A DNA stretch of 64,000 nucleotides from Planoprotostelium fungivorum. Taxonomy: Eukaryota > Evosea > Variosea > Cavosteliida > Cavosteliaceae. Of this stretch, positions 1,497 to 51,253 are shown piece by piece (within the stretch, counting starts at the first letter, position 1; every line of letters begins with the position of its first letter). The position numbers were made by a program, and so were the translations under genes. The stretch spans positions 1 through 64,000 of the forward strand of contig MDYQ01000079.1 of assembly GCA_003024175.1 (NCBI GenBank), given 5' to 3'. Under the pieces are notes generated by a model. That model had not been told where the DNA came from. It did no database searches and saw only the letters and a program-made list of their open reading frames with translations.

Positions 1497-2793
1497 TTCG
1501 TTGTAGAGGGTCGGAGTTCGCTCCAGTCAACTCAGATAGACGTAAGATACGTCAGAAGAGACTATTCGATGCACGAAACTATTTTTCGATCGAGTGTGAT
1601 CATGTGTTAATCGATTTATCCATGTGTTTACACATGGATACAGATGGACCAACTTCGTTGTAGAGGGTCAGAGTTCGCTCCAGTCGACTCAGATAGACGT
1701 AAGATACGTCAGAAGAGACTATTCGATGTACGAAACAAAAATTCGATCGAGTGTGATCATGTGTTAAGAGATTTATCCATGTGTAAACACATGGACCAAC
1801 TTCGTTGTAGAGGGTCAGAGTTTGCTCCAGTCGACTCAGATAGACGTAAGATACGTCAGAAGAGACTATTCGATGCACGAAACTATTTTTCGATCGAGTG
1901 TGATCATGTGTTAACCGATTTATCCATGTGTTTACACATGGATACAGATGGACCAACTTCGTTGTAGAGGGTCGGAGTTCGCTCCAGTCAACTCAGATAG
2001 ACGTAAGATACGTCAGAAGAGACTATTCGATGCACGAAACTATTTTTCGATCGAGTGTGATCATGTGTTAATCGATTTATCCATGTGTTTACACATGGAT
2101 ACAGATGGACCAACTTCGTTGTAGAGGGTCAGAGTTCGCTCCAGTCAACTCAGATAGACGTAAGATACGTCAGAAGAGACTATTCGATGTACGAAACAAA
2201 AATTCGATCGAGTGTGATCATGTGTTAAGAGATTTATCCATGTGTAAACACATGGACCAACTTCGTTGTAGAGGGTCAGAGTTTGCTCCAGTCGACTCAG
2301 ATAGACGTAAGATACGTCAGAAGAGACTATTCGATGCACGAAACTATTTTTCGATCGAGTGTGATCATGTGTTAATCGATTTATCCATGTGTTTACACAT
2401 GGATACAGATGGACCAACTTCGTTGTAGAGGGTCGGAGTTCGCTCCAGTCAACTCAGATAGACGTAAGATACGTCAGAAGAGACTATTCGATGTACGAAA
2501 CAAAAATTCGATCGAGTGTGATCATGTGTTAAGAGATTTATCCATGTGTAAACACATGGACCAACTTTGTTGTAGAGGGTCAGAGTTCGCTCCAGTCGAC
2601 TCAGATAGACGTAAGATACGTCAGAAGAGACTATTCGATGTACGAAACAAAAATTCGATCGAGTGTGATCATGTGTTAAGAGATTTATCCATGTGTAAAC
2701 ACATGGACCAACTTCGTTGTAGAGGGTCAGAGTTCGCTCCAGTTGACTCAGATAGACGTAAGATACGTCAGAAGAGACTATTCGATGCACGAA
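1497..2793. repeat. Satellite array of two interleaved unit types (157 bp A and 147 bp B)
   Basis: Units begin at 1497, 1654, 1801, 1958, 2115, 2262, 2419, 2566 and 2713 (the last is partial), each starting TTCGTTGTAGAGGGTC (the 2566 copy reads TTTGTTG). Spacing gives the order A B A A B A B B and a truncated copy. Type A carries CGAAACTATTTTTCG and a 10-bp insert (GATACAGATG) near the end. Type B carries CGAAACAAAAATTCG. Both contain the hairpin GACGTA-AGA-TACGTC and the near-palindrome TCCATGTGT-NN-ACACATGGA, where the centre is TT in A and AA in B. Conservation between copies is very high, indicating recent homogenisation. Long open frames on both strands are a by-product, since 147 is divisible by 3. 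The flank 2794-3538 shows no gene I can support. Confidence 0.92.
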
Positions 2794-3538: not shown

Positions 3539-6428
3539 ATGAAGATGGAAGCGGCTTTGAAGCTCTGCTTCCTTCTCCTCTTTGTGTCTTCCGTTTCCAG
3601 TACTCTCAGATATGATAGAGGATTGACCATGGTGTACGACGTGGTCGGTACTTTGACATCCAAAGGCTCGAGCTATCTGTCCGATCTGGAGACCAATTCC
3701 ACTCAATCTACCTTCACCGCTCAGTTCACCACCGAGTGCCTCTTTTCTGTGAGACCAAATGCATTTTCCTTCTCGATCTCTTACACTCCGACAGACCAAA
3801 GAGTATGCAACGTTCTACGCTTACGTCAGCCGAGCCACCGTCTCCAATGATGTCTCCACTCAGAAGTTGTACGGACTCTTCTCAAAACAACTGGGTCACG
3901 CCTTCTACTACAATCAAACCTTCCAGGGAAGAGTCACATCAGTTCAGCTGGACACTCGTGATAATGCCCAATATCAGCAGGTGACCTCCCCGATGAACAA
4001 ATCGGATGCATTCTCTTCGATTCCGATTGACACGGATCTCAGATCAAATTGGGAGTCATCAACGCTCTGAACACCAGGATTCTATCACCCCTCTCAACTG
4101 AGCTCGTAGAAGATTTCGATGTGATCGGTCGTCACCGCTCTCACATGTCCGCCGCCTCCAAGACAGCGGAAGACATGCTGCCCATCAAGAAGGTGAGTCT
4201 CTCCATAACCAATCGCGACCCACACATTCAACAGGAGTTCAGCCAGACCGACGTCGTCCAGTACTCCGACCCCGAAGTTCAGGCGAGACATTCTGAAAGT
4301 GCATCATCACACATCCTGACCAACATCAGCCCCACACCATTCAGATGCAAGCATTGGGTCACGCCATGATCCACTCGAAGGGATACATCCATTCGGCCAG
4401 TCTGCAACAGAAGATCAGTATGACGCAGGGCAACCAGAGTGAGCAGCGATGCAGAACGATACGATCCACTCAACCTCTACAGACAACGGAAACGGACAAG
4501 CCGCCGCGGACATGTCCCCCACTTGCCTCGGTCATCTCAATTTGACCCTCAACGATGTGAGATCTCATCCTCATCGTCATGATGAGATAATCGATCGCAT
4601 TCGAATGACAAGACTCACCTCCAACAGATCACTTATGATTCTCTCATCAACAACAAGAGGGCCGAGAGAGAGACTTCCACCACTACGAGTGAGTACTCCG
4701 TCTGCCTCCTCGAGCTGACCACGTCAGCTCACTACGATTCGTTGAAGGAGGCTGCTACGTCCATCATTCTCAAGTTGGCCACCGAGAGGGCAGAATCACA
4801 CGACACAGAGTCCGCCCTGGCAAGATTTTTCTCCGCGGAATCTCTCTCAACACCGCTCGCCCACGAGGTGAATTCCATTCGACGTTCACGAAGTGACCCA
4901 TTCGGCAGATCGCCAGGGTCTTGACGCAAGTTCCCGCCAAGATGAAGCTGATGACTTCCCGCCTGGAAGACGTCCGCCACACCGTCCGCGCCCTCTACCT
5001 CCTCTCTCTCGTCAGGGAGCAATCCACCGCCTCCAAATTCTTCGTTCACTACGGCCTCAAGTGAGTCGCTCCGTCTACAACGTTGTAATCGGACGAAACA
5101 GGTCCGAGCACCGCCACGTGAGAGAGCAGGCCGTGTCGATGTCCCACCACGTGGAGTCCCCCAGCGAGGAGATGCTGCACCACTTGTCTTCTATTCGCAG
5201 CAAGGATTCCGCCCTCGCCTACGTCTCAGTGGCTACCAGATTGAACCTCAGGGCACCTTACGTGAGACAACTCTTGCCACAGAGATACACCGGTGAGGTC
5301 ACGTGACCCGTCAGACGATAACGGAGGCAGGAGCATCAGTTATGGACTACAACATCAGCCGAAGTGCTAATTATAGCCTGGGTGGAAGCTGGGTCGGTGC
5401 TGGTGAGAGAGAGGAGGGGGTGGTCGATGACATCTACACAGGTGTAGAGGGAAGCATCTCGTTCAGAAGTCAGGACAAGTGCACGAACAAGGAGGGTTTC
5501 GATTTCGATTTCGATGCCACGGCAGATCTGTACCTGGAGATGTTCATGCAGAAGCAGAACGCACTCAAGGCCACTGCTTCTTACGGAAACCACGCACACC
5601 CCAAGGCCATCGATTTCGAGGTCATTCTTCTTCATCGTCACATCATCATCACATCATCATCACATCATCATCGTCCAACATCACATCATCATCGTACATC
5701 ATCATCATCGTCAAACATCACATCATCACACGATCGTGCATCATGAACCTCATCCGAGTATATACATCCACCACAAAACAACAACCAGATGACTTACGGA
5801 AACAGGTTTGGGGTAAAGTGGTCAAGCACGTCAGCCTCCCCGACATCGACTGCACATCCCACGTCTACAACTGGACATCTTACCACCCCGGTTTCAGCTT
5901 CTCGTACAACCTCTGGACCGCTGTCATCCCCGTCACCTTCTCTGCCGTCGCCTCTCTACGCTTAGACGTAAATCATTCCATCTACAACGCGCCGACTGAC
6001 TCGTTGTAGATCGCCTACGGCTACGAGGTCTGTCCGTTGGATCTCAAGGCCAAGGTGGACGTCATCCCCGACGCCTCTGTCATCGTCTCTGCCGAGATGA
6101 TGGTTGACCTTCTATTGGTCAAGTCTGGCACCAAGTTGGCCGGTCAGCTGTCCACAGTAGTACAGCCCGAGGTTTCTATCGATACCTGCGAGGCCACCGC
6201 AACGGTGAGTCATGATGGATGATGATGATGGACGTTGACGGGAAACAGGTGACGAGAAAGGACAGACCGATGGATCTGTCGTTCGATGTGTACTACCAGT
6301 GGAGAAGGTGCAAGATCTTGTGGATCTTTGATTGTGTCATGGATGAGATGCACGAGCCTGAGCAGTGGAAGTGGTCTCTCCCCGCCTCCGAACACGTCCT
6401 GGCCAAGTGGAACTTACTCACTCTATAA
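3539..6428 (+). CDS. Large secreted protein, possibly lipid-transport/vitellogenin-like
   Basis: The first exon encodes a clear signal peptide (ALKLCFLLLFVSSVSS) followed by TLRYDRGLTMVYDVVGTL, so the product should enter the secretory pathway. About eleven exons follow in frame through short GTGAG..AG introns, for example 3750-3801 and 5968-6009. The ends of exons include RHTVRALYLLSLVREQS and, near the C-terminus, DYNISRSANYSLGGSW and YEVCPLDLKAKVDV, which look like beta-rich repeats. The N-terminal pattern and the helical middle region resemble large lipid transfer proteins, but this is an impression and not a motif match. One intron near 4287-4342 could use either a GT donor or a GC donor without changing frame. 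Another, about 5626-5815, is filled with CATCAT simple repeats. The stop is TAA at 6426-6428. The gene structure is fairly certain; the family is tentative. Confidence 0.72.
5980..6011. repeat. Short palindromic intron element (type copy)
   Basis: ATCTACAACG (5980-5989) is matched by its exact inverse CGTTGTAGAT (6002-6011) around a 12-bp centre, GCGCCGACTGAC. It fills most of a 42-bp intron (5968-6009) of the secreted-protein gene, and its right arm provides the AG acceptor. Related copies are at 37772-37788, 38201-38217 and 38393-38424, and palindromic short forms at 5074-5088 and 20705-20720. Confidence 0.75.
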
Positions 6429-11669: not shown

Positions 11670-14600
11670 CTATTGGAAGATAGCTACTGCCACCCAGGCC
11701 TCCGGGTTCGTCAGGCCAGGCGTTAACGATTCTTCCTTCAAGAACTCGAGGGGGAAGTGACACAAGTGTCCCTTCAAACGGTTCAACTTGTCGATGGATT
11801 GTTTCCTCTTCTGATCGTCCTTTGGAGCTGCACCGAACGAGATACCTTCTAATTCTTCCTTGTCTGCCTTCTGCGTCACCTGCATCGATCAGATGGTGAT
11901 CGTGATGCATCGTCATCACCTCTACGGTATCTCTCGCGTCTTGTTGATCTTCTGCACTGGAACTCTCTCCCACGTCTTCGTTCTGTACTCTGTCACGCCC
12001 ATCTGATGTCACATCTACTGCATCACCTTTCCCCTCCTGAATCGATGTCTCTTCTTCTTCTCCTGCTCTCTCTCTTCCGTCACCTGACTCAACTTGTGGA
12101 TGCTGTTCTTCGGTATTCCGTCAAAGACATCGTCCAATATGTCCGTATTGTGTGTCGCCGTCGCCAGCCAGATTCCGTGGTAGACCTTATCGTCTAAAGG
12201 GTCCCTGATGCTGTTGTCTCCCTCATCTAACCCACAGTGTTCTCTCCACAGTCTCTTCCTCAGCTCATGAGCAAATTTTCTGACCTGATGTGAATCAGTC
12301 TCCACCTCTTCATATCTCATATCAGATATCGTTCAGACCTCGAACGGCTTTCCATCCATAGTGCCCTGCATGACCTCACTGTCCTCGACTACGGCGCAGA
12401 TTTCAGAATCTCTGTCTCCCTTCATGCTTCTGTCGTTGATATTCGCACTGCCCATGACAACCACTGCGGAAACATTCAACCATCGCTGCTCCACGTTCTA
12501 TCTGTATCACCTCGGTCGTCTACAATGAGAAGTTTCGAATGGACGTAAATCTGCTCGGAGACTAAATCTTCTAGTTCGTGCGACACACTTCTGACGCAGT
12601 GAAATGAGATGTAATCGGTGATCTTGGCCCTGGGATGTTTCTTCCTCAACTTCTCCATGATGGACGATCCTTCTGAGGTCACGTGACGTACGTACGTTAC
12701 GCTTCACCTCCTCGGTTGATGGTGTCATACTCCCACTTCATGACGTACTGTACGGCCATCGTGTTCTTCCAGGAACCACCGGTGGGAAATGCAGGCATCA
12801 GAACTACCACCCTGTACTTTTCGTTCCTCTTCATGGCTCTATTGTACGGTGAGGAAGGTTTTAGGGTTTAATTTAAAGATGATGATTCACCGGTGGATTC
12901 GTTTGTAGAGAGCGAGACCGATCTGGTTGTGACCGGTACCGTCTATGGGTGAGATGAAGTATTGATTCTCGATGTAGATGAATTTCTCGGAATTTTCGAT
13001 GAGGGACAAGTACGCCTCGTGGATGGAAGTTTCCGTGAAAAGTGCGCCAGACCAAGGGGACATCGATCGTGTGATCTGAACCTGTTCGCAGCCTCAGCCC
13101 CACACTGGGAAGACATACCATCCGCTATAGATAGAATGGGATCTATTTTTAGAAGATGGATGGAGGTCATCACCTGACACTTTGAAGAGAAGCTGTTGGG
13201 CAATAGAGGTGAATCTGATGCCGCCCATTCGTGCCATCCAACATGGTCTTCACCGTCCATCTCATCGGTGATCTACAATTCGTTTCAGTCACACAGCTTC
13301 CATCGTGATCTAAAAATAGAACTGTGAGGATGAAAACACCTCCGGCCCCCTCGTGAGGCTGTTCGTCCTCGCTCTCTCATCTACAACGATCAGTCCATCA
13401 TGACATCATCCACGTGACATCGTGACAAGGTCGATGCCACTCACCTGCTGATATGGCGGCCTCTTGCTCGTTGTACTTGTTCAAGCCCTGACTGTTCCTG
13501 AGGTCCTGCGGTTGTAGATTGGTCGAGGGCTCCTTTCTGGGATCATCAGGGTGGGGCAGATCCGGCTTGCTGTGAGACATGAGATGGAGCGTTGTAGATG
13601 AGACATGAGATGGAGCGTTGTATATGAGACACGAGATGGAGCGTTGTAGATGAGACTTACCTCCTCGAACGATCGATGCTGTCGTCTGGAGCGTACTGTA
13701 CAGAATGAGAAGACGATAAAATAAAATGAAATCAATCCATTTCATGTGATTTCAATCCTAGAGAGAAGATAGAATAGAAGGAATGGAAACCTGATGAACT
13801 GGATTCTGCACGGTACAGCCGATGAAGTTCAAGAGAGGTTGAATGGGGTTGCTCGACATGATGCCCCTGTCATTGCTCGTATCCTTACTCACCAGAGAAG
13901 AGATCATCTTCTTCAGTAGTGACCTCTTCACTCCACTGTGTATGCCTGCATTCCGTCATTTCCCTTCTATTACCTTCTCTGTTCACCCTTCTCGGTCAAT
14001 CGATGCATCGGGGGTGCTGTCTTTGGGTACAAGTGTGGTGATGATGAATTGAGGACAACGATGTGGTGGTTCCACCTCTGAACAAAGACTCTCGCTACGT
14101 CTCTCGCGGCTTCACCGTCCAGGGCCATCTGGTAGGGTGAGGGGGAGATCTCGTGGAAAACTCACGTGGATGTCGTGCCAAGGTTGACGGGGTTCCTTCG
14201 ATCGGTCCATGATGTCGTCCCCTGGTTTGTCGCAGCCTGCGGCGGCCTTCAAGCTCTCGTTGCTGATGAACGCGTGAGGGAGATTTCAATGAGATTCGAA
14301 GGAAAATCGGAGGAAATCTCACAAGTAATCCTTGCCGGGCCATCTCGTTGTAGACGGATCTTTTTCGGCGCACATGTGAACGGAATCATCGTATCTTCCG
14401 TAACATAGATCTGTTGGGGTGAATATGTCTTTGTGACGGAGGATTTACCTAAACCTCCGACGAAGGAGATGTCTTGATCAATGACGACGATCTTCTGGTG
14501 ATGTGTCCCTATTCGATCATCAGTCATTGCGATCATCGTGATCGTGATCGTCAGTCATTGCGATCATCGTGATCGCGATCGTCAGTCATTGCGATCATCG

Positions 14601-17116
14601 TGATCGTGATCATCAGATCGCGATCGTGAAGTACCACATCATGACAGAAAAGAAACAACTCACAGTAGATAGGAACGGTGTGTGGATGCCTCATGACACG
14701 AATGTTGGGTGACAATGCTTCCAAACAGCTCTTCGTGTATGAACTCTGAAGATCCATGGGAACCGATTCGTTCCATGCGATGACCGAGATGACCACTCCT
14801 GCATGACGTCATCATCGATCTACAACGAGCCATCTCACCTTCGTCTGCTTTTCTCTTGAGGATGTTCTTCAGTTCGTATCGGTCTCCCACGCTCTCTCCT
14901 CTGATCAATTGCAGATGAGGACACACCCACCAACCTACGTTCGAATTAAAATCCATCGAAAATGATTTTATATCTGGTGGTGAAGGTCTCACCTGCAATG
15001 AAAATCTCTTTCTTCGCTCTCTCCATAGCGTAAGCTACGAAAGAAAAGTAATGTGTGGCATCTACAAACCATCTACAAGCAATGTCGTCCTTGGGTGAAG
15101 CGAAAGAGTGGTAGCGGTTGTGTGGTACGTCTGTACACGTCAACATGACATGTGACGGGTGACACTTCACATGGAGAATTGGCAATGATGGCGTACATCC
15201 ATTCCAACCTCTCTCTCTGCTCTGCCGCCAAGAAATATCTCTTGTACCTGTACACATGAGCGTTGTAGACGGTGAAATTTCACTGACTTTCCCTTGGCAG
15301 CGGACAGGTAGAAACACCACGTTCCCGCCAAAAGTCCGGAGCCCTTATCATCAGGTATGCTCAACGTGCCCCTGGCTAATCCTTGTACAAGGGATGATTC
15401 GACGATATTTCCATCGGACATCTCTCTGTGTAGGATGAGAGGAAAGAATAAAATAGAATAAAATACTTTGTGGGATTATCCAAAGCCTCTTTGCTGTCGT
15501 CTTTGATGATGGTGGGCTGGTCGGCTGCGCTTCCTTGGTTTACCTCTGTTTCTGTGAGTTTTCATCGAGTTTTCTCTTCACCTTTTCCCTTGTCGATCAA
15601 CTCTCTCTTCTTGATCTTTCGATGCTCTCCTTCCTGTTCTCTTCAGCACGACATTAAAATAGAATAAATCATGTAGAGTGTCACATCATCGTAGTTTGAT
15701 TCAAACGAATTTCACCTGGAAGAGTGGATTGGCATTCTTCTCCCTCGCTTGATTCTTCTTGGCTCTGTTACTGAATTTGAAGATGTCGTTGTTCTCTTCA
15801 TCTTCAGGATGATCTTCTGCAACATAGACTGTCCTCCATCAGCATATCACCCGTGATATCACGACATATCTCATGATATCATACCGTTTCGTCTGGGGCT
15901 ATTCATGTGATCTTCTACGTCATAATCATACTTCCTGTCTTCTTTCTCTATGTCAGACTGCCCACTATACTTCTTCGCGATGTTGAGATTATCTTTCTTG
16001 GCCTTTCGATTCTTTTTCCTCCTCAATCGATGGGGCCAATGTAGTCTGACCCTTTGCTTCAGCAATTGACATGCATCGAGACGTCACCTTCCGTGTTTGA
16101 ATTCATCTCGAATGTGTACTTTGGAATTGGTGAGAGGAATGGCTCTCGATGGCTGCATGGCCTGCGATGCATTCATTTCACATTCATTTGAATTGATATC
16201 TATCCGTTCATGATGATCTCTATATCGAAAGACGCACCTGTCCCTGAGTGGGTCGCTTCTTGAAGATGAAGAGGAAGCCACTTCTTATGGAGACGAAGAC
16301 TCTGTGGTGACGGCCTCGGAGGTCGCGGCTGTTGAAGAAACCTGGGTTACGCTTGAGGAGGGTGCCCTCCATGATGGGAGGTGTCAGAGTGTCTCTCCTG
16401 ACCTGAAGACACGGGTGAGGTCATGATGGTGATGGTGATCGTCATCAGCGGTGATGGATGATGATGGTGATCGTCATCAGCGATGATAGATGGTGATGCG
16501 TGTGAATGGATGTGACGTCATCAAATCACCTTCTTCTCTAGTGGACCGAAGAAAGAATCACGAAAGTAATCGATGAGACCAACACCGGAGAAGATTGGAT
16601 TTCTTGGAAACATCTTTGATCTCCTCTTGAATGTCTCGTAATCGATCTTATCATGTCCTGACATCCATCAGATCAAATCAAGTTACATCGAATCAAATCG
16701 TATCACATCAAATCAAAGTTACATCAAATCAAAGTTACATCAAATCGAATCGAGGAACATCAAAGTGACATCAGATAGAATCACCTCCAAATGCCTCCGA
16801 TAGCAGGTGACGTAACTTTGTCGTACGTTCCGTACGCAGCTGATTGATCTGTTCCGGGGATAGATCGTCTTCGTCGTCATCGTCCGTCGCATCGAATTGT
16901 ATCGTTTCATCTGAACGCATCAGTCGGCGCCAAATTCAAAATTCAAATACATGGTCGACGGTTCTGTCCCGCCAATTCGTTGATCTGTCTGTCGATGTTC
17001 TTCTCTCCTCCCTTCTCTTCTCAGCCTGTGCGATCTATTTATAGCCTCACCTCCTCTACAACTTGTTCGTCATCACTGCTGGTGGCATCTTCATCTACAT
17101 CGTTCTTCGGTGCCAT
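11670..17116 (-). CDS. PLD1: Phospholipase D (PH + two HKD motifs)
   Basis: The enzyme hydrolyses phosphatidylcholine to phosphatidic acid and choline and would act at the plasma or endomembranes. The N-terminus is acidic (MAPKNDVDEDATSSDDE). A PH-domain-like part follows near 16050-16540 (EGTLLKRNPGFF, HHRVFVSIRSGFLFIFKK). HKD1 is HHQKIVVID at about 14490-14510, followed by FVGGLDLCYGRYDD and RWPGKDY after a short intron. IYIENQYFISP lies at about 12955-12985, HKD2 is VHSKLLIVDD at about 12520-12550, and then MGSANINDRS. The C-terminal region has RKFAHELRKRLWREH and the family-typical GHLCHFPLEFLKEE. No PX domain is visible. There are about 20 exons. Introns hold several tandem repeats (14521-14613, 13570-13660, 16680-16760). 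The start lies only 53 bp after the stop of the upstream EF-hand gene. Confidence 0.93.
13575..13660. repeat. Three ~30-bp tandem repeats in a PLD intron
   Basis: The unit is GAGATGGAGCGTTGTAGATG plus AGACAT or a variant, repeated three times with a few changes. Each copy contains CGTTGTAGA, the arm of the intron element found elsewhere in the window. Confidence 0.75.
14517..14622. repeat. 31-bp tandem repeat (x3) in a PLD intron
   Basis: CAGTCATTGCGATCATCGTG begins copies at 14521, 14552 and 14583, with GATCGTGATCGT-type filling. The units are nearly identical and rich in overlapping GATC palindromes. They lie in the intron preceding the HKD1 exon in transcript order. Confidence 0.8.
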
Positions 17117-18629: not shown

Positions 18630-21404
18630 CTACCTCGGTATGTAAAAGTTGTTCGTCTGCTCGATTCTGTTCGACCTCTCTAACCACCCCGTACCCTCTT
18701 CCTTCTTTCCAATGCTGATGAGGACTTGACTCAACTCCCTGCAGCACCTGCATCCATCCATCAGCCTCCATCATCATCATGAGAGCGTCACCCGATGAGA
18801 TCGGTCCGAATCTTCTCCGAAGTCTCGACGTGTTCCCGCCTCATTTCTTCCAATTCCGAGACGGTCCTCTTCGAATTGGAATACTACAACGAGTCAATTT
18901 TTTTCCCGCGACGTCTACCTCACCTCGTATCCCTCCCTCTTCATTCGTGATATCTCTGATGATATCATCTCTGCCCACTCTCTGTGGACTTGGATGTGCA
19001 GGGGACTGATAGACATGACCCTGTGGAACAGCTGTATGGCTCTCTCGTTATCTTGCCAATTTCTCCTGCGGCTGGCCGCCCACACCATCAAGTCCGACTC
19101 ACTGACGAAAGTTAAACCCTAAATCCCACCGTACGCACCTGAACTCGACGCCCTGTATCGACTCTTCAAAGTACCGGTGGGACATGGAGAAATTCTCCAT
19201 CTTGGCGTGGAGCGTCGCAAGCCCGTAATACACCGTCTTGTGCTTCGAATTGTTCTGTGCCTTGTTGTAGTGCTCCATCGCCTTCTCGTATTCTCCCAAT
19301 TTCTGATGGACGTCCCCCATTAGAATGTGCACCCTTGTCAGCTGCCTCTTGTGTGATTCCTTCAACGAGCCGTTCGTGTTGACATGGCAGATGACGTGAC
19401 TCGTGATGCACTCCTCTATGAGTCTCAATTCTTCTTCCAATTCTCTCTTTGCTTCCTCGTAATTTCCGAGGACGTAGTGACACTTTGCCACTTCGTAGCA
19501 CAACTTTTTGTTGGGAGCTAATTCCATGGCCTTCTTGAAGGCAGTGAGAGCGTTTGTGAATTCTTCTAATTCGGTGAAGTAGAGGGTACCGAGTAGAATG
19601 TAACCGTTCGAATACTTTGGATATTTCTCGAGTAGCAGCATGAGCTGATGAGAGTGAGTCGCGTGTGATGATGAGGTGAATCGAACCTGACCGATGGATT
19701 CTCTCGCTCGCATGTTGTCTGCCAAGAGGGCGATGTCGTATACGAACGTGTCGGCCATTCCATTCTGTGCTGGAGCGTAATTTGGATCCAACTCTAATGA
19801 CTTTGCAAAGTACTGTCTCGCAGTGTCTTCGTTTCCTGTGGTCATGATGAGACGTCTCATCATCATCATCGTGTTCGTGTCATCATCTCCATGTGGAAAC
19901 GGGAGCTCACCGGCTTCGGCGTGGACCCAACCCAACTTTGTCAGGGCGTGTATGTGTGATGGATTCAATTCGATCGCCATTTCAAAGTGGTATCTCGCCT
20001 TGTTGACGTTCTTGTTACTGTTGTAGAGCCACGCCAGGCCGTAGTGAACGTTCGGCAGGTCGTAATTCTCAGACAGAGCTTTCGAATAGAACTCAAAGGC
20101 TTCGTCGTTCTTGTCTAAGAATTGCAGAGAAGTCGCGATGTGGTTGAAACACCTGATCAGTGATGTTACGAAGTGGAATTTCGCGGAAAATTCACCTGGC
20201 GAGAGATATGGAAGAAGAGAAGAGTGATTTGGGTGTCTTCCTCTCCCTGGAGAATTCATTCAAAAATCGACAAGTTCGAATGTCTATGGCAACCGACTTG
20301 TGGTTGTTGCGGTCTGACCGGCCTGAGTTCATGAGAAGAGGGGACACGATGTCATCATGACGATCACCTTCTACCGATTTAGAGGACGATGCTGATGTCT
20401 TTGGGAGAGAGGAGATGATGGTCTGTAAGAGAGAGAGGACGGGACGGTTGGTGTGGTCGTCTGGAGGCATGACTTGGCTTCTCCTCTGAAAATAGGCGGC
20501 GCTGAATTCTATGGTGGGTGCCATGTTGTTGGACTTGAACGGGAGATGGTACAGCTCTAGGCTGGATGGATGATTTAGACGAGTAAAATGATATCACTTA
20601 CCTCTTTTTGAAGTATTCGAGAGCTGCATTGTCATTGTTCAGGCGATAGTACGTATAAGCCACGTTGTAATAGTACGAAACCTGCTCTCCTTCAATTTCG
20701 ACCGTCTACAACGTTGTAGATGGACTCACCTCGGCCTCGTTTCTCGTGAATTTCTCCAGTGCTGTCTTGAACGCTCGCTTTGCAGATGCGTAATCGCCCC
20801 AGGTCACAGAGAAGTAACCATGGTTCATCCATGCCATGATGTTCTTTGGATTGAGCTCTTCTGCCTTCCGGAGATGTTCTATACACTGTTGGCGAAGCTT
20901 ACTCGTCACCACTTCGTTCGGGTCGTCTGTCGAAAGGGCTGTCGAACGATTAGAGGTCGTTCGGTCACGTCCATCTCCACGGAATGGATGCAGATATGGA
21001 CGATGGGATGAAGGAGATGGACAATCACCGGTGAGTGTGTGCACCCATGGGGAGACTGCATGTTCTTCTTCGATCTGTTCGTTGATCATTCCAAAAAGGA
21101 AACCTTGGAATGTGTGTGATGAGTCGTCGTTATTATCGCACAGGAGTGCGTTCTTATTGTAGTAGACCAATTTCTCTAAGTCTGCCGGTGGCACGATGCC
21201 CAGCGAGGAATGTGTGAACGGAAGGCATTTCCATTTCATCACAGAATCCACGATGGATCTCCAAGCGAAAGACGTGTCTCTACATGCACAGAGATCGAAG
21301 GGGTGGAGATTTTCTAAAATGTGTACAATGAGCTCTACCGATAGAAGATTGAAGCCGTTGTGACTGTTGTGCTGGTTGCCTTGAGATACATCCATACTAT
21401 CCAT
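18630..21404 (-). CDS. F-box and tetratricopeptide-repeat protein
   Basis: The N-terminus carries an F-box-like motif, FNLLSVELIVHILENLHPFD, followed by CACRDTSFAWRSIVDSV, which in this family binds Skp1 in SCF ubiquitin ligases. The rest is a long TPR array: examples are NIMAWMNHGYFSVTWGDYASA, HYGLAWLYNSNKNVNKARYHF and TRVHILMGDVHQKLGEYEKA. At least ten TPR units are seen over about 700 residues. The exon ends fit short introns, two of which carry the TCTACAACG element (18884-18897 and 20705-20720), and two carry TTTCCCGCG- or TTTCGCGGAAA-type sequences. The substrate is unknown. It could instead be a scaffold, with the F-box as a weak call. The stop is at 18630-18632. The upstream gap 21405-21888 contains nothing I can support. 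Confidence 0.8.
20705..20720. repeat. Perfect 16-bp palindrome, short form of the intron element
   Basis: TCTACAACGTTGTAGA is exactly self-complementary and lies just inside an intron of the F-box/TPR gene. A near-identical form is at 5074-5088. It equals the two arms of the 5980-6011 copy joined without the spacer. Confidence 0.75.
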
Positions 21405-24582: not shown

Positions 24583-24747
24583 GTTGCAGTTGATGTCTTC
24601 CTTCTTTCTCGGATCTATCCCGTTGTAGAAGGTGGTGCAAATTTCCTCGTTCCATTTCCAAATGTCACCGCCTTGGAAACAGACGCAACACTATCATTCA
24701 ACACAACAGACACAACGAACACACGACGACTATCTAATTGAGAAGAC

Positions 24748-25099: not shown

Positions 25100-27932
25100 T
25101 TATTCGTTTGCACTCTCGGGTGCGTTGTATAGTGACATATAGAAGGGAAGCTTCTTCTTATCGTGATTCAGTACCTCAGAGGAGGCTAGCATCTCCGCTC
25201 TACGTATAGAGGTAGCCTTCGCTTCTGCTTTCATCTGCCCGTCGATGAACAATCCAACGTGAAAGTTGATGTCTCCTCCCATCCTCTCTCTCCCCAACAC
25301 CTGCACACCTCCGTTCAGCTTCACGTGTATCATCTTAATACTTCTCACCTTGTATTCGATCCTCTGGTGAGAGTAGATGTGAAGAATGCCGCTCTTCCAA
25401 TCAGTCTGCAGCTGATGGAGGTTCTCTTCAGAGAAAGAGACGTTGTAGTGCAGGATGAAGCTCTTCGCTGCATCTGCACCCAATTCGAGATAAAGGACAG
25501 CGATGAGTGATTCAAAGACATTGGCCGTCGTCTGTCTCACGTTCAACGCTGAACGGAAGGAAAGATGTGAGACAGAATAAAATAGAATAAAATGACCTTT
25601 TCGGATAAACCTCGAATGACTGTGCCATCCTTCGTGGATAACAATTGATCTAATTTGAGATTCTTCGAACAGAAGGACAGATTATAATTGGACACCAAGT
25701 TGGCCCTACACACGTGAGGAGGTGAAGAGACATCCACACTCACTTGGTCTGTGTCAGTGGTCCCTCAGAAGCCTTTGGAAACTTTTCGTAGAGGTAGATC
25801 GACACGAACATACCCAATATAGAGTCTCCCAGGAACTCTAATCTCTCGTAGTTGTGTTCGGTGCCTCCAGTAAAGGCCTTAAAACGGTCAGTTGTAGATA
25901 GAACTTGTCACGCACCATGTCTAACGTTCTCCCGTCTTTCAGCGACACACCGATGTCTCTCATGAGAGGAAAGAACTTCTCATCTACAATGCAGTTGTTC
26001 ATGAGATGGTCTCGTCTCTGTTTCTGTGTGGATTCTTTTGAGTTTCCGTTCCACAAGCCTCTTAAAGTGACTTCTCCCTCCTTCGTCTCGTTCATTCACC
26101 GAACGGATCCATTCGTACTCACGTCTCGTTGTAGATAAGTCGTCACGAACTTTTCGAACAATGATTTCGCCTGATTGATTCCATGATCGATCAGAACTGC
26201 ACCTGAACTAGGAAGTGAGTGACAATTGACACGTGCGACATCACCTAGTATGGCTTCTAAGACATCAGAGCCCGCGCTGTCGTGTTGGATGTCTAAAATG
26301 TGATGGATATCCGTCGCTCGTGCTGTTGTCTGTCAGCTCTTGTGTTACCTCCCTTTTTATCACCCAGTTTCTGCAAGAAGGAATTTCGGATAAATGATTT
26401 AACCGATTCTGTGAGTTTTCCCTCATCATGCTCGGGATGGAGTCGGTACATCCTATTCTCTTCACCATCGAATTTTCATCGAGTTTTCACCTCTCGCTGA
26501 CCATAAACTTTAAAAAAGAATCACCCACAAATTCCAACCGCTGTCCTTCTTAACCGATGTAGATGAATCGAATACAAGTGTCTCATCAGTCAACTCACTT
26601 GATAATTCGAATCGAATAGGAGAGATCCAGGTAGAGTGATCGCCTCTTGTAACGTCTTCTGTTGTCTCATCTTGAAGTGTAACACGTTCTCCTCCAATCT
26701 ATCCTCTTTCACCTCCTCGTCTCTATCTTCTCCTCACCTTCCCGCCTGAAGAGACACTTGTAAGATGTTCCACACGTGATGCAATGTCTGAAACATCGTC
26801 TGCACACCACAATTCATCTCCAACACACTGCACAGCTCGGGCACCAATAGATTCTTTCTTCACGTCAGATCTTCCAGCGTGGACGATACATGAAGAAGTG
26901 GGACAGACGTACCCCCGACGTACTGTCCGCATTGTCTGACGGAGGTCCGGCGCCACAGTGCAAGAGAGGCTGCTCGTGATGGAAGATATCGACTCCATAC
27001 TGTTCGGTACATTCAATTTGGTTCAGATGACTCGTTATTTCTTAGAATAGAGAGGAAGGAAGGACACCTTGTCCTTGTAATAGTGGATGTAGTTGGTCAC
27101 TACTTTCTGCTTCTTCACTCGAACGATGAATTCGGACGTTGGCTTGATGTTTGAAAAGATCTGAGTGTGTCAGAAGAGATGGTGGCAGGTTTCGTGTTGG
27201 TGAAAATCGATCACGCATGATCACGTCTCTTTTGATGATGTTCCAATGATCATGATCATATCGTGATCACCATCATCAAACTTCATCATGGATTGTGATG
27301 TGATCAAGTTTCTCACCTTCTTGATGCAGTTATATCTGTCGTTATAATCTGAACGGATAACTCTACCCAGTAGCATAGACTTCAACTTCGAATCGGTTAC
27401 TTTTGAATCTTCTGTGTTCTCACCTGTTTCATTCGTAACGTTTCATCTTTTATCAAATCGGTCTGATGAATGAGATCGATGACAGGATATCTGTCTCGTC
27501 TTCATCTTGAACCCAGCACGGTCGATGATCGTGAGGTAGATGATGACTCACCTCTGTTTCATGCGATCGACGAGAGAGATGTTGAGATTGAAATCGATGG
27601 ATGATAGACTCATGTCTGTGACGTATGCAGGTAGAAAGATGGTCCCACTCCTGAGATGGTACGGTGAGGTCTGGTGTGATGTCATCTGATCTCACCGTGA
27701 AAGTGGCTCCATCAAGGTGGACTGTTGTGTTAGATCACAGAGGAGAAATTTCTGATATTCCAATAGTGTTATCCAGTCCTCGACCGACACGGATTTCTAT
27801 CGCATCTTGAGAAGATGCAACCACCATCTCAATAATATTCACTTCGTATAAGAATTGCCCGGATACTCTCGCTGTATCACCGTCCATGAGAACTTTCCCA
27901 TCTGGAACGGTGACTTCTAATCGCGTGAGCAT
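25100..27932 (-). CDS. Dicer-like ribonuclease III (PAZ, RNase IIIa/b, dsRBD; no helicase)
   Basis: The product should cut double-stranded RNA into small RNAs. The N-terminal part has [35 protein letters not shown] and [20 protein letters not shown], a platform-like region. The PAZ-like segment has [13 protein letters not shown] (about 27080) and, after an intron, [12 protein letters not shown] (about 26830), the family LVPEL motif. RNase IIIa has [13 protein letters not shown] (about 26520) and SDVLEAILG. RNase IIIb has [14 protein letters not shown] (about 25830) and [12 protein letters not shown] (about 25520), where Asn replaces the usual catalytic Asp. A C-terminal dsRBD-like part has [16 protein letters not shown]. 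The first in-frame ATG is at 27932, but the frame stays open to about 28105 (KVYWIKIRREQN), so a short upstream exon is likely. The divergent gene at 28316 leaves no room for a helicase. About nine exons. Confidence 0.88.
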
Positions 27933-36643: not shown

Positions 36644-39600
36644 TTATTCTTCATTTTTCTGAGGTCTGGGTGGCTTCTGAACGTCCTCCATGGTGGGTGA
36701 CGATATAGCCCACCACGGTGCCGGACGGTCTTGTCTTCTAACCGAAGTGTCTCCCTGCTTCTCTTCAGTCCTCCATCTCCATCTCCATCGTGACGTTCGA
36801 TCACGTGCATCATCATCATGTTCTTTAGAGGATGAGACGTCACCTTGTATGGCTTCTTGTAGATGGGGACGGCACCTCCAAAGTAGAACTCTTTGATGGT
36901 CGTTCTTAGACGTCCGGGGCCGAATGGAAGCTTCTTGTGTCTCTCGATCATCTCATCGTAGTTCTTTCGGATGTTCTTCTGTACGGCAAAATATCTCTCT
37001 CTCGCTGCATCGCTGTACATGTCTCCTACAACCTGTCATCATCATCAGCTTCACATCATCATGGTGTCCAAAGCGTCATGTGATGGTGTATCGTGTGATC
37101 GTCTGATCATGTGATGATGGATGATGATGTATCGGTTGATCATCTCTTGTGATGATCGATGGTGCATCATCCGATCATCATGATGACGACCGATGCATCA
37201 TGATGCGATGTCTTAATCACGATCATGATGGTTCTCACATCCTTCACGTGCTTCTTGTAGTTGTTGGTCTCCACGGTGGGCTTCGTCAACAACACTCTCC
37301 TCTCATCCCAGGTGGCCATTCTCTTTGTTCCATCGATCTCGGTGACCACAATCTCTCGGTTGAAATCGTCACGGGCTGGATCAGCGTTGATCTCGTACAA
37401 GTTGAAGTTGACTGTTCCGGGGGGGAACTTCTTCTTCTCTCTGTCGAATGCATCAGCCACACCATATAGACATTCATCATGATCATGGTGATCACCATGA
37501 TCGACACGATGATGTCGATCACTATCACAAGATGATGTCGATCGACAGCACACGATCATGATCATGAGAATCACATGTGATCGCGATGGATGATGATGAT
37601 GATCACCTCTCGATGTCCTTCTCTGACCGGTTTCCCTTGACAAAGACGATGGGCTTGGGGTATCCATTCGAATCAGGTGTACCGTTGGCTCTAAAGTAAG
37701 TTCTGTGCGCTCTCCTCATCTCTTCGTCTTCTTTCGCCTTCTGCAAGTCCAACATGTAACGAGCGTACTTGATCTACAACGCGCCGATCAATCCTCCGAA
37801 CCATCTCATCACGCACACCTCATCGTACTGATCGTCCATGATGAACTGCGTCTGTGGTGGTCTGATCGGCTCGGGCTCGTAGACATCGCCACTCTTCTCG
37901 TTCAGCGTCCAAACGATGTCTTTCGCAAACGTTTCCTTCATGAGATGATGAAAAGTCGGGTTGAAGTGCAGGTTCTGCTGGGTCTCCACGGTCCTGCCCG
38001 TGGTGAGAAAACTCGATGAAATTTCGACTCGTACTTTTTCCTGTGGACCATCTGAAGGATGAGAGAGATCTTGTCCGGGCGGATGGCTGTCTCTACACTC
38101 AGGCGATCGACGTCATAGAAGACGGGGTCGGTCACGTGACGATCGTAGATGTCGTTCATGGCATCGGACGATAAGATTTTCACCGGAATTTCAAAGTCCC
38201 TCTACAACGAGTCAGTTGGTGATGCAACGGGAGGACAGACCTGATCGTAGAGCATGTCTAATCTCTCCTCTTCAAAGGCAAGGAGGCGAGTGAATTTCTT
38301 GTCTAAGCGGGCGGTGTCTGGATCATTCTCGTCCATCTGTTTCTCGGTAGGGTAGTTCTTCAAGACACTCATGGCCTGACGGTGTCAGTTCCATCTACAA
38401 CCAGCCGATTCACTTGATTGTAGAGGGGATAATCTTCCGGTTGGGGTGGCTTGCCTCCCTTGCGTAACGGTACGTACGGATCGATTGGAGCTGTCTCCTT
38501 CAGTTTCTACCCTTCTCTTTCTCCTCACCTTCTTCCTTCTTCATGTATTTGGCCAGACTACCCGAACATCAATCGATAGAGAACAGTGGTCAACTCACCC
38601 TGATACAGAGAGGTAAGCGTCGGACTCTCCTTCGTCTTCTGGTGCATCGAATTCCGTCACTTCGGGGAGGTGTTGGTTGGGGTGGAAGTCTTCTGAGACG
38701 GGGTAAGGAGAGTCCCAAAGGGGGTCCAAGTCTTCCTTGTCGATGGGACTGAAGGCTGTCGATCCATCAGTGAATGCATTCGAATGGATTGTATATGAGT
38801 GGATGCATTCGAATGGATTGTATATGAGTGGATGCGTTCGAATGGATAGTATATGAGTGGATGCATTCGAATGGATTGTATATGAGTGAATGCGTTCGAA
38901 TGGAGTTTGAATGCATGAAAGTGTACGAGTGCATGATAACAAAGTGTGAGTGCATCATGAGAGATAGATGGCGACGATCGATGAGATGAAAGTGCGTTGT
39001 AGATGAGAGTGCGTTGTAGATGAGAGTGCGTTGTAGATGAGAGTGCGTTGTAGATGAGAGTGCGTTGTAGATGAGAGTGCGTTGTAGATGAGAGTGCGTT
39101 GTAGATGAACCCCACCTCCTGCAAAATGGGGATGGTCCAACGGAGAGTACGTCTTCTTAGCATAAGCTCTCAGATCTGATTCCTCCCAGCCTCCGGGCTT
39201 GAACAGATGCTCTTGACCTTCCTTCAGCTCGGGGAAACCCAGCCAGTCGTGCGGTGGAGGTCTGGCAGCTTGAACCAACTCCTTCAATATGTTGTCCGGG
39301 ATCTTTCCGTCCACCAGATGAGGGGTGAGGCCGTCAATCACGGTACCGTTCTTGATGGCTGCAGCCAACTCGGCGGGAGCCTGCATCGTCATGAGATGAT
39401 GATGGCGATGACTTGATGATGATGAAACACACCTCTTCACGGTAGATCTCAAAGTACTCGCGAAGGACTGGATCCTTAGCCCAAGCACTGTGCTCGGTCG
39501 GGGGAGGGGGCTTAGACCACACCTCAGGTCCGGGGCCCATGGGTTCTCTCTTGGCTTCCTCATCGATCTCGTCCATCAGTTTGTCCATGACTTCCCGTCG

Positions 39601-40544: not shown

Positions 40545-42076
40545 TTAGACGTTGTTATCTCCGTTAGAAGAGTGAGCCAGAAGGCTTGCCACTTCGATGG
40601 AGGAGCCCTTCCTTCCTTGTGACCTGCTCAATCTGTTTTCCTTATTCATTATCTCTCATTCACATCCTATTCTCACCTAGCTTGCTCAGGGGTGACCACA
40701 GGGGTCAAGTGTTTTTGCAGGCGCCTCAATTTTATACTCTGAGAATAAAATCAATTTCAAATGGTTTATTCTTTAGATAGTCCTCTCACCTTCTCTTCAG
40801 CTGGCATGGCATCGGTCTCATCTTCAATCTCTTCTTGGATGAGCTCCTCGATGACATCCTCTAACGTGATGATGCCCACCAATTCTCCACGAGAACTGTC
40901 CGTAACCGTCGCCATGTGACCTGCGTCCATCAGCGACACGATGCAACATGATGTCTATCTCACTTCTTCCCGTTTGGAATTCGTTCAACATATCGTAGAG
41001 AGGCTTATCAGTTAAGACACCGGGTAGAGGTCTGAGGCCAATCTGCTTGATTGGCATTCTCTTGTCTGTGGACACACCCAGGAGATGCTTGACCAACAGC
41101 AGCCCAACGATGTTGTTGCGATTGTCACGATAGACAGGGACTCTCGAGTGTCCGTCTGAGATGAGCTGTGAAGGATGAGAATGAGATGGGGTGATGTGAA
41201 ATCACATTGTTGGACATGATCTCGTCGAACACTTCATCTTGGCCAACCATAAAGACCTTCTCGAGAGAAGTCATGCAGTCCTGGAAGAGGTGAGTGGTGG
41301 AAGATGGTGTGATGGACCACCTTGACGGTTTTCGTCTTCATGTCGAGTGCTCCATTGATGATGTTGCACTCGTCGATGGAGAGGGGGCCTTGATTGACGG
41401 CAGCATGCATCGTGACCAACTCTTTGAGCTCTGAGCGCTGGATTTGCATCAGATCGAGATGGAGGTCGTGTTGACATGAGACTCACTTTGTAATATTCTC
41501 CATGGTCTCCACCGAGAAGACGATCGAGAAGAAGTCCGATGGGGTATGATATGGGAAAGGTGGCATACATCAGAGCACGAACGAGCCAAGAAGTATAAAA
41601 CCCGATGGCTAGACCGTAGCGGACGCAGAGGGCTTGGGGAATGATTCTAAGAAAATGATTAACTCTCGACATGGATAGTTTGTAGTGGACTCACTCTCCA
41701 AAGAGAAGGACGGCAGTGACGGAGACGATGATGGCAATGACGGGGTCAGTCAACTTGTCCAAAAAAATGGGGAGAGCCTCCATAGCGCAAGCGTTACATA
41801 ACAAAAGTGTGACCATGAGGTGGTGACGGTTCTTGAGGATGGGGATGATGCCAGAAGCATACTTTTTCTGTTTCACGTCGCCGCTGTGACTCAGAATCTG
41901 AAGGTTCATTTGATCGAGAGACAGTAATCCGACGGTCAATCCAGACATCATTCCTGTCCACTTCAGCACCTCTTCCCATCCCAAATGTGATTCTCACCGG
42001 AAGTGCAGACTAAAAAGATGGAGACTCCTGAGTACAAGAGTGTTGTTGCCGGAGTAAGATCTTCATGATGTTCCAT
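40545..42076 (-). CDS. CNNM/CorC-type membrane protein (DUF21 + CBS domains)
   Basis: CNNM proteins are linked to Mg2+ transport or homeostasis. The start MEHHEDLTPATTLLYSG leads into VLKWTGMMSGLTVGLLSLDQ and a run of hydrophobic helices (LMVTLLLCNACAMEALPIFL, IIVSVTAVLLFGE, YGLAIGFYTSWLVRALMYA). These match the DUF21 transporter core, including the family-typical SGLT.GLLSLD. CBS motifs follow (DMKTKTVKV, LVGIITLEDVIEELIQEEI). The C-terminal tail is short (RLSRSQGRKGSSIEV) and lacks the cyclic-nucleotide-like domain of animal CNNM. Seven or more exons. A TCTACAACG copy lies in the presumed 5' UTR at about 42150. Confidence 0.88.
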
Positions 42077-42486
42077 ATAGCTCTAACGCGTATTCTTTGC
42101 TCTTCTTTGGTTGCAGCGGATATCTTCTCTACCAATGCGGTTTGGCTCGTTGTAGATGATCCATTTTTCACAGAACGAAATCCCCGATACAATTATCCGA
42201 TGAACGATCGACGCTAACTTCTGATAGCTGTCTGAACACAGACAGATGGTGAAGCCTCGTCTCTATTTGATACGACTCCTGAGTACTCAGCCGCAATACG
42301 AGACGATCGTTCATCGTGTTGGTATGGATGATGAGAAGAAGAACTCGATGGTCAAAAATGAAAGTCGTGTTACAACGATGAACGGTGCCTGTGGTGTGGA
42401 AGAAAGTTCCACTCTTCCTCTCTTCCTCTCTTCCTCTTTCTCAAATCGATTCGAAGCTATCATGTCGATCGAATCCGATCCAAACA

Positions 42487-47780: not shown

Positions 47781-49389
47781 TCACAAATGTCTTAACAGGT
47801 CGTTGTCTTCTATGACACGATTGGCGTTGTAAGAGCCTCCCAGTTCAGAGAGGGTCTTGTTCAAGTTCTCGGAAGGTTCTAAAGGCAAATCGAAGGTGAG
47901 CCTGCCGTTCATGAAGTCGTTGACGATGGGGTTAGACATTCTCAGTGGAGTGAACGTGTTGACCTCTAACTCCTCCGGCGTCTGTTCCTTGTAGGCCACC
48001 ATGAACCTATCGGCCTTAAGAAGGTGACGTGACGGTGTAGACACTCACTTTTGGGTGTAGATGGAGTCCGTGTAGCCGGTTCCAACTCTGACGTCAGACA
48101 GCTGACTTCCATAAGCTGCTTCTAAGAGCTCTTTCCTTCGATAGAAAGCTGAGGAGGTCAGATGAGGTGACGCATGAGGTATATAGAGGTCACCCGTCCA
48201 GTAGGCATAGTTGGTCAAGAAGGCATCGTCTTCCGTGTTCGTGTCTGGGAACTTTTCTTTCACGTGGCTGTGGAGCTGGAAGGGTGAGAAGATGCAGAGA
48301 TGATGATGACGATGAGAAGATCAAGAGATGATGATGAGTCTCTCACCTTAGGTAGGGCAGGGTGGAGGGATACGTGAATGAGCTTCTTATCCAGATCCTC
48401 CTGTGAAAAATGAGAATAAAATACATTTAAAACGATTTTATTCCTCACCCCCATCAACTTGATGGCGTCCTCCATAGGACCGTTGATGGTCGTCTGCTCA
48501 GTTCCTCTCTTCACTTTTTCGATCCAGTTCAACAGGAGCTTCGTACCTGGAAAAGTTAAGAGGTGACGATGATGATGAGGTCCCGACCTCTCTCCATGAG
48601 AGTTTCCATGGTGACACCGAGGGCGGCTTGTTCGTCGATGTAAGGAGAGGTGTAGACGACAGATGTGATGTCGAGACCTGTGGGGGTGAGATGATGGAGG
48701 AGATGGATGTGCATGGGAGTGGATGATGTGGGAAGATGAACACCTGGGGGAGGGGCGTTCCAATGTTCGGCGACGTAGGACTGCTCGGTGTGTTGTTTGT
48801 AATCCACTGTAGATGGTGAGGGGGTGATGTGATGATGGAAAGGGGGGAGGATGTTTGAAGAGACGACCCACTCTCAGAATTGATTTTAAAGTGCTCGTAT
48901 CTGTTCATGACAACGGCAGCTGTCCCGAGGGATCAGTTCATCGTGAAAAGGGGAGGAAAGATGAACGGGTTGAAACATGAAGAAAGAATTCTATGGAGAA
49001 GAAGAAGACAACTCACAGATGACAACGGGTCCCAAGACTGCATTTTGTCCCATCACGGCGATGGAGGCCACAAGATCCTTCTCTTCTCCCTCAAAGGTTA
49101 TCTCCCCCTTCTCATACTTGTCAACAAGTCTGCTGGTCGTATTCATGAATGGATCGAGGTCTCTCCTCTTCTTTGAGCTCAAGAGTTTGTCGATCTCGAG
49201 GGCCAAAGGCAGCTTCTTCTGGGCGAATTCCATGGACTTGGCTTCCTTCTGCAAGACCTCGGTTTTTTTAGATACGATCTCAGCCAGATATGTTTCGGTG
49301 CTCGACTTCCTGTTGGCAATCTGGGGTAATCTGGTTAATCCAGACAGGCGACATAGAGTCGATCTCTGAGCTAAAACTCGCAGCATCAT
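47781..49389 (-). CDS. Mitochondrial-targeted protein, unknown
   Basis: The start MMLRVLAQRSTLCRLSGLTR is a typical mitochondrial presequence. Then TETYLAEIVSKKTEVLQKEA and DLDPFMNTTSRLVDKYEKGE form long helices. Later exons have HSEQSYVAEHW-type sequence, SVVYTSPYIDEQAALGVTME, LLLNWIEKVKRGTEQTTING, FYRRKELLEAAYGSQLSDV and EELEVNTFTPLRMSN, ending IEDNDLLRHL. About 330 residues in about 10 exons. It may be a lineage-specific subunit of a respiratory or ribosomal complex. It shares an 81-bp divergent promoter with the HemW gene, also mitochondrial by its N-terminus. Confidence 0.68.
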
Positions 49390-49470: not shown

Positions 49471-51253
49471 ATGTTGAGAAGATGGTCGATCGACCTCTCC
49501 AGATCGTGGAGATTGACACAGAAACGAAAGCCTTTATCTTACAGGAGATATCAATCGGAGGTGTCGATCTATGTGCATTGGCCATTCTGTTCGCAGATAT
49601 GTCCATACTGTGATTTCAACAAATACCTTGACCCGAGAAAACTCAATATGACACATTCGAAATACGATCAACATGAAGATCGAATGATCAAGTGGGTGAT
49701 CATCCATCACCCACCCCCTTGACCGAGGCTTCAGGTGTCTTACAAGTGAATTGGAACACTTCATGAAGGAAAAATCGACAGAAAAAGCTGGCGATCTCTC
49801 CGTTGTCAGTGTCTACTTTGGAGGAGGCACACCCTCTCTCGCGCGGCCCAAAATGGTCGGAGACATCTTGTCCACCGTCAAACGGCATGCCAACATGACA
49901 TCCGATGTCGAGATCACATTGGAGGCCAACCCAAAGGTGATCCGATGCAGTTGCATCATCTCGCCACCTTCGATCATCGAATCACGTTTCAGGTCATCAA
50001 TTCTCATCTCACGTAGGATTGCCTCACGTCTCATTCATTAGAAGATTTCAAGACGGAAGGCATCAACCGTGTCTCTCTCGGCGTCCAATCCATCATCGAT
50101 GATGATCTCAAACACCTCGGTCGCTTTCACTCTTCTCAAGAGGTGAAATTCCACTGAAATCTCGCGACTGACACCATCAGTCTAGAGAAGCCATCGATAC
50201 GTGTCAAAAATTGTTCGACAGCGTCAGCGTGGATCTTATCTGTGGCAGACACCAGCAGAAGCCTTCTCAGTGGAGAGAAGAATTGAGACAAGTGTTGGAT
50301 CTCCACTGTGACCACCTATCCATCTACAACTTGACGATCGAAAAAGGCACAAAATACGATCGAATGAAGCAAGAAGGAAAACGTGAGCCATCGTGCATGA
50401 TGCATCACGACTGATCGTCAAGTCTCATTACCCGACGAAAATGAGTCACTCGAGATGTATAGAGACAGCCGCAGTATCTGCCAAGAGTTTGGACTGAAGC
50501 AGTACGAGGTCAGCAGTTACGGCCGCGACGGACACCGATCCAAGTGATGATATCAGTCGTGATATCTCTGACGGTAAAGGCACAACTTGCACTATTGGAA
50601 GGGAGGGAGTTACATTGGAATTGGACCGGGAGCGTGTGGTAGATGGATCGACACAAGTGGAGAAGTCTACGAGATGAAACAAGTGAGACACCTTCACGAT
50701 CATCATCCATCGCATGTCGTCATCATCATGATCATCATTCTTCGCTGTGTCGTGATGGTGACCCGTGATCACGAGTCATCGTCATCATCATCAAAAGTCT
50801 TCACGAGCTGTCTATCTCCATCTTACCATTCCAACGATACAAACGATCTCAAACAACAACAGATGAAACATCCAACCCAATGGATGAAGTCAGTCGAGTC
50901 CATTGGACACGGAACACAAGACAGAATTCGATTAGAACCTTCCGAAATCATACAAGAATACATTCTATTCAACATGAGAAAAGTGATTTAAATCCGTCTA
51001 CAACGAGACGAAAGACTGACGACGAGAAGGTGGAGGGAATCAAGAGGAGAGAGTTTGAAGAGAGATTTAAGAGGGAATTGAAAGACGTCTTTGGTGTGAT
51101 GACAGAGGCCATGAGGGAAGAAGGTGAGGGAGAGGATAGAAGAGGAACTGAAAGGGGGTAGGACTTATCGTTGTGGATGAAGAAGGTGTGAGGGCGACAG
51201 ATAGAGGGAGGGAAGTGTTGGATGCCATCATGGACAGGATAAAGATCTCATGA
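49471..51253 (+). CDS. RSAD1: HemW/RSAD1-like radical SAM protein
   Basis: The N-terminus is basic (MLRRWSIDLSRSWRLTQKRK), consistent with a mitochondrial presequence. The radical SAM motif is CSQICPYCDF (C-x3-C-x2-C), which binds a 4Fe-4S cluster. GGGTPSLARPKMV, VEITLEANPK, GINRVSLGVQSIIDDDLKHL, SIYNLTIEKGTKY, YEVSSYGRDGHRSKHNLHYW and GIGPGACGRW follow, all HemN/HemW-family signatures. HemW inserts haem into respiratory enzymes and is not a coproporphyrinogen oxidase; lack of the fourth Cys of HemN (the motif ends CDF) supports HemW. The C-terminal region has IIQEYILFNMRK and DEEGVRATDRGREVLDAIM, a winged-helix-like end. About nine exons. An intron near 50681-50840 contains GATCATCATC repeats. 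Confidence 0.92.

Follow-up and report, generated by a model that had tools for sequence, protein, structure and literature searches.

Several kinds of recurrent intron sequence and of short regulatory words have been described to which the motif reported here can be compared; what is said of each below holds for the parts of the cited papers available to us. Introners are found by screens in which similarity must be at BLAST level and extend across the intron to near both of its ends (PMC9860276). Some of their families have terminal inverted repeats and some carry their own 3' splice site, while a target-site duplication is not required of them since only 49 of 130 scorable families have one (PMC9860276). 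The introner elements of Amoebophrya contain hairpin-capable inverted repeats of 8-20 nt inside introns; their junctions carry direct repeats of 3-5 nt, and their splice sites are mostly non-canonical (PMC7789003). The symmetrical stwintron-related introns of Hypoxylaceae have no target-site duplication, their terminal repeats are 45-55 nt long and whole introns are similar (PMC8469720). Finally, the cis-regulatory sites of compact protist genomes, for instance in Theileria, are short motifs in non-coding DNA near genes (PMC2612703).

The motif was studied in a window of 64 kb, the whole stretch of DNA that was analysed. Like introners it recurs in introns, but its similarity stops short of both intron ends, no target-site duplication accompanies it and its arms measure 8-10 bp (compare PMC9860276, as far as available). 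It shares inverted repeats inside introns with the Amoebophrya elements (PMC7789003, in part), from which it differs by a single spaced arm pair, by canonical GT-AG splice sites (the only ones that our gene model allows) and by the lack of direct repeats. Symmetry within introns and the missing duplication recall the Hypoxylaceae introns (PMC8469720, in part), whose repeats are much longer. As with the Theileria sites (PMC2612703, in part), the word is short and lies in non-coding DNA near genes; unlike them, it also forms 3' splice sites. Our tentative reading, to which we give slightly less than an even chance, is that the motif is a short constrained putative cis-acting recognition site, which spans about 16 bp, CCRTCTACAACGAGNC, has a near-invariant 9-bp core and is located in introns and less than 100 bp upstream of some starts. 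Such a constrained putative recognition site is favoured over a mobile element because little was found in the way of shared flanks, junction duplications, paired arms or a range of decay.

The window is dense eukaryotic DNA, in which our own gene finder, trained on the 64 kb and allowing GT-AG introns only, placed 33 genes and 123 introns with a median length of 45 bp. Pfam and PDB searches with part of the predicted proteins recognised a phospholipase D, a CNNM transporter, a GRASP protein, a radial spoke head protein, a DEAD-box helicase, an RNase III and others. Introns 13093-13444 and 14411-14663 were dropped by hand and 13381-13444, 13570-13660, 14411-14448 and 50983-51026 were added; the corrected set was used for the counts of placement, upstream distance and junctions. 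Seven motif introns were predicted in all 18 gene-finder settings. Three hand-called ones are less well supported than the others: the two in the phospholipase D gene sit in an unaligned linker, and splicing out the one in the HemN/HemW-like gene yields a weak, sub-threshold HemN_C match across the junction (E 0.095).

A first-pass annotation had described a short element that recurs in many introns and in both orientations, and this recurrence is real. The 9-mer TCTACAACG occurs in 33 exact copies, on both strands, against 0.35 expected in the 64-kb window, and none of 100 shuffles reached that number (the largest gave 2). Seventeen of these copies fall inside three tandem arrays (8 in 1497-2793, 2 in 13573-13656 and 7 in 38984-39108), which were left out of the Markov, compartment, one-mismatch and exact/near-ratio counts. 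Outside the arrays, 16 exact copies stand against 0.44 expected under the Markov model. The copy number is therefore above chance for a 9-mer, and chance as the origin of the recurrence is ruled out by the copy-count, Markov and shuffle comparisons. Within the window the density reaches 1.3/kb in introns and 0.04/kb in exons, and sub-words of TCTACAACG were the top over-represented intron-shared words by z-score for k = 7, 8 and 9 (30 shuffles). The gene-finder model assigned the non-array copies to introns (10), exons (1) and intergenic DNA (5); hand curation of the latter placed one in the HemN/HemW-like intron, one in RNase III coding sequence and three upstream of start codons. Sense and antisense copies both exist in introns, so the orientation relative to the gene is not uniform. 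No account of the motif was found in the literature, which was looked through superficially by topic and by sequence letters. The copies and related features are listed in Table 1.

Table 1. Positions of motif copies and related features in the 64-kb window; settings are those of the gene finder.
Positions	Strand	Feature	Context
1497-2793	-	147/157-bp intergenic satellite, 8 exact copies
5074-5082	+	Sense copy, changed second arm	In intron 5061-5101
5968-6009	+	42-bp intron	Predicted in 18/18 settings; retention adds one in-frame stop, the motif TAG
5980-6011	+	32-bp unit ATCTACAACG...CGTTGTAGAT, both arms	Right arm is acceptor of intron 5968-6009
13381-13388	+	Antisense copy, acceptor of hand-called 64-bp phospholipase D intron 13381-13444	64-bp form in 3/18 settings
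13570-13660	-	Hand-called phospholipase D intron with 26-bp tandem array, 2 exact sense copies	Exact intron in 0/18 settings
14346-14354	-	Sense copy in phospholipase D coding exon, reads STTR	Linker region
14819-14827	+	Antisense copy near donor of intron 14799-14838	Junction within segment aligned to human PLD1
15261-15269	-	Sense copy in intron 15248-15287	Gene-model intron
18884-18891	+	Antisense core, acceptor of intron 18884-18923	Intron in main gene model
20705-20720	.	Exact 16-bp palindrome	In intron 20682-20729
24621-24629	-	Sense copy	39 bp upstream of hand-placed DEAD-box helicase start
26127-26135	-	Copy directly before donor-like GTGAGT	Intergenic per gene finder; RNase III coding by hand
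37773-37781	+	Antisense copy, acceptor of intron 37774-37818	16-base block in common with 5980
38201-38209	+	Antisense copy, acceptor of intron 38202-38240	Intron in 12/18 settings
38393-38425	+	Diverged full-length copy, one indel	Spans exon/intron junction in gene model
38984-39108	-	17-bp tandem array, 7 sense copies	Begins just after donor of intron 38756-39115
42148-42156	-	Sense copy	72 bp upstream of hand-placed CNNM start
50997-51005	+	Sense copy in hand-called intron 50983-51026, HemN/HemW-like gene	Exact intron in 0/18 settings
54862-54870	-	Sense copy	95 bp upstream of predicted radial spoke gene start

The motif can be written as TCTACAACGTTGTAGA in double-stranded DNA, UCUACAACG as sense RNA, CGUUGUAG as antisense and CGTTGTAG as the antisense acceptor end. 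When 21 copies (including arms paired within an intron and two one-mismatch copies) were aligned on the core, they shared the 16-bp consensus given above. Conserved columns run only from -3 to +12 and none beyond is nominally significant over the 25 bp to the left and 30 bp to the right that were examined, so that the similarity to near both intron ends which introner screens need is not found. A recurrent short word with a fixed core and unconserved surroundings is a feature of cis-regulatory protein-binding sites, of which the typical one is expected to have a less strict core than this motif. In non-coding DNA the core has 15 exact and 12 one-mismatch copies, letter-permuted words having on average 7.0 +/- 6.6 one-mismatch copies, and the exact/one-mismatch ratio of the core is the highest among 119 non-coding 9-mers with at least 6 copies. 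This suggests a word that is held intact and not a set of decaying repeats; a short unit copied very recently could give a similar pattern. Most copies are single half-sites. The two terminal inverted repeats that flank each copy of a MITE are not seen, as two exact inverted arms occur in only 2 of the 12 motif introns, spaced in 5968-6009 and overlapping in 20682-20729.

In the hand-corrected set, the exact 8-bp core is found in 12 of 125 introns and takes preferred places there: in 40-bp introns it lies either soon after the donor, mostly in sense, or at the very 3' end in antisense. Seven introns, two of which hold tandem arrays, have a sense copy, and in each of them the first one begins at position 11-20 of the intron. 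Five of the seven antisense intron copies make up the exact 3' end of their intron, CGTTGTAG (P 7e-7), which represents 5 of the 22 TAG acceptors, and all ten introns with non-array copies are at most 64 bp long (P 0.002). The antisense intron ends read CTGACTCGTTGTAG (5968 and 38202), TTGACTCGTTGTAG (18884), CTGATCGTTGTAG (13381) and TTGATCGGCGCGTTGTAG (37774), and the motif shoulder therefore overlaps the branch-point region. A CTGAC/TTGAC-like word precedes them, in agreement with the earlier claim that the arms supply AG acceptors after a branch-point-like CTGAC. In introns of about 40 bp the motif would have room in just two places, between the donor and the branch point or, when reversed, over branch point and acceptor, and this may be why its reverse complement was co-opted as a 3' splice site. 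A role of the sense CTACAAC as a branch point was rejected; it is possible in 15248-15287 and 5061-5101, but other sense introns have, by eye, a CTGAC-like word nearer to the acceptor.

The presence of both orientations had been taken to speak against a simple splicing motif. Both strands do occur, but the argument is weakened since the need for AG forces the antisense form at 3' splice sites, and elsewhere 12 of 14 copies are sense (P 0.013; 10 of 12 without exons, P 0.04). This 12:2 tally was made by hand, with only P computed, and leaves out satellite and one-mismatch copies; for introns alone, away from acceptors, the bias is not significant (7/9 sense, P 0.18). A simple splicing consensus is rejected as the whole account, because no splice site is formed by the sense copies, by those upstream of genes or by the satellite. 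The ten motif introns among the 123 of the uncorrected model, which covers predicted genes, are concentrated in 4 genes (P 0.002-0.004; same-gene pairs P 0.02-0.03), and a sense copy is likewise present in every one of the four genes whose introns hold antisense copies. Motif-like exonic targets were not significant, with a lowest P of 0.059 and 0.073 for TAC near the donor.

Retention of intron 20682, 37774 or 38202, in the same way as that of 5968, adds an in-frame stop that is always the motif's own TAG, and motif introns that have length 3n and do not exceed 64 bp contain no in-frame stop other than this TAG (4 of 4; chance 0.012, post hoc). A premature-stop role was rejected; the 360-bp motif intron, also 3n, has its stop elsewhere. 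Among all predicted introns up to 64 bp long, 25 of the 29 with length 3n have an in-frame stop ahead of the acceptor, compared with 10/28 and 20/31 in the other length classes; this would be expected if 3n introns that stay unspliced have to be recognisable.

Outside introns, the three curated intergenic copies are all sense and 39-95 bp upstream of starts (post hoc P 2.5e-4), two of the three starts having been set by hand once the motif was known, where the gene finder's own starts give about 355 and 203 bp. The copy at 26127 was left out of this group because it is read as coding. The satellite adjoins a poly-C run with N at about 1453-1485, where an assembly problem is possible. Its 22-mer is absent from viral and prokaryote contigs, and the radial spoke protein has no relative in viral contigs. 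A viral origin of the motif was rejected: the 16-bp palindrome matched 13 IMG/VR stretches, near chance by a hand estimate, and the spaced palindrome matched 5, representing 3 distinct sequences, without further copies in the fetched DNA. A known RNA gene was likewise rejected, Rfam at the gathering threshold giving only a tRNA.

The 32-bp unit said to fill most of the 42-bp intron is present and leaves only the first 12 bases of that intron uncovered, its own last two bases (AT) being exonic; the remainder is too short to have been an intron before, which speaks for a duplicated unit. As RNA, 5980-6011 is predicted to form a hairpin of -8.9 kcal/mol (z -2.4), and the intron folds with its arms paired, 6 of 200 shuffles being as good; four other motif introns gave z of -1.9, -0.6, +0.9 and -0.6. 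The related sequences reported with this unit were largely recovered. The 16-base blocks at 37772 and 38201 and the partial copies at 14819, 15261, 18884 (with one mismatch in the 9-mer) and 50997 all exist. Both palindromic forms were found, the one at 20705 exact but the one at 5074 with its second arm altered. The diverged copy at 38393 exists too, but not within one intron, as the gene model puts its right arm in coding exon and the donor in its loop. This loop resembles that of 5980 beyond the arms (loop-shuffle P 0.0055, for one selected pair).

The first-pass annotation explained these observations by a mobile, introner-like or MITE-like source. A short inverted-arm unit would insert into genes and found introns, the arm bringing branch point and acceptor and the donor coming from the unit or the target. 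Five acceptors that are the arm itself, the shortness of all ten non-array motif introns, one of them nearly filled by the unit, the likeness of 38393 to 5980 across the loop and copies on both strands speak for such an element. Yet conservation ends at about 16 bp, core decay is slight with few decayed copies, few copies are two-armed, and copies also lie in exons, upstream DNA and the satellite. The junctions show no target-site duplication, with a mean in-register match of 2.33 in the 12 motif introns against 2.60 in the other 113. The Amoebophrya arrangement, an inverted repeat joining the intron ends plus direct repeats at the junctions, is not found, the spaced arms being confined to one intron, and no transposase was recognised among the 16 of 33 predicted proteins scanned against Pfam. 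The mobility proposal thus fares poorly and a duplicative element appears rather unlikely. It is quite improbable that the motif is instead an intron seed, that is a word of about 16 bp which contains branch point and acceptor when in one of its orientations, which was copied into genes without target-site duplication and around which some one in ten introns (12/125) were begun or rebuilt. If true, this intron source would be too short for the introner screens that need BLAST-level similarity, as described in the available part of PMC9860276.

It is unlikely, too, that the motif acts on RNA, where an RNA-binding protein or a guide RNA would recognise sense UCUACAACG in the pre-mRNA, or where this word would pair with CGUUGUAG, its antisense form, at the 3' splice site of its own intron or of a later one. 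The sense bias away from acceptors, the sense copy in all four genes with antisense intron copies and the paired arms of intron 5968-6009 speak for it; the other four folded introns, the non-significant bias in introns alone and the satellite copies, which are intergenic in the gene model, speak against it. A word kept by copying drive, comparable to bacterial DNA uptake sequences or to a slippage or recombination hotspot and accumulating where coding constraint is lacking, would account for the exact repetition on either strand, for the inverted pairs and for the three separate tandem arrays. It leaves the exact acceptor use unexplained and we consider it very improbable. We know of no such drive in a eukaryotic nuclear genome; a narrow literature look for uptake-sequence-like inverted repeats in eukaryotic introns found nothing, which is no proof.

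The putative recognition site is favoured by the exact core, the sharp edges, the intron enrichment, the preferred intron places, the concentration in few genes and the occasional dyads. A sequence-specific protein might bind the motif to regulate the host gene, more probably on DNA, as a half-site or palindromic dimer site, than on RNA. This leaning to the DNA level is a judgement and not a result, made because of the exact palindrome at 20705-20720 and the three copies before starts (39, 72 and 95 bp; two hand-placed). The sense bias of 12/14 counts against it and would suit RNA better, while the common loop of 5980 and 38393 and the 32-bp unit filling a 42-bp intron count against isolated sites. 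A site that has another role and in several introns doubles as 3' splice site would illustrate how 40-bp introns accommodate regulatory words along with splicing signals.

Other words recur in the window. A second intron word, ATTTTATTC/AATAAAAT (for example in 25532-25596, 40739-40789 and 48401-48448), has 11 of its 19 8-mer copies in introns and behaves differently from TCTACAACG because it is strongly sense-biased. The palindromic GTCACGTGA is a further recurrent non-coding word with 10 copies, mildly enriched in introns (P 0.04, whole window). A tRNA-Phe (GAA) gene lies at 55125-55200. Finally, introns 12839-12890 and 19102-19138 contain TTAAACCCTAAA or its complement, which resembles a plant-type telomere repeat.
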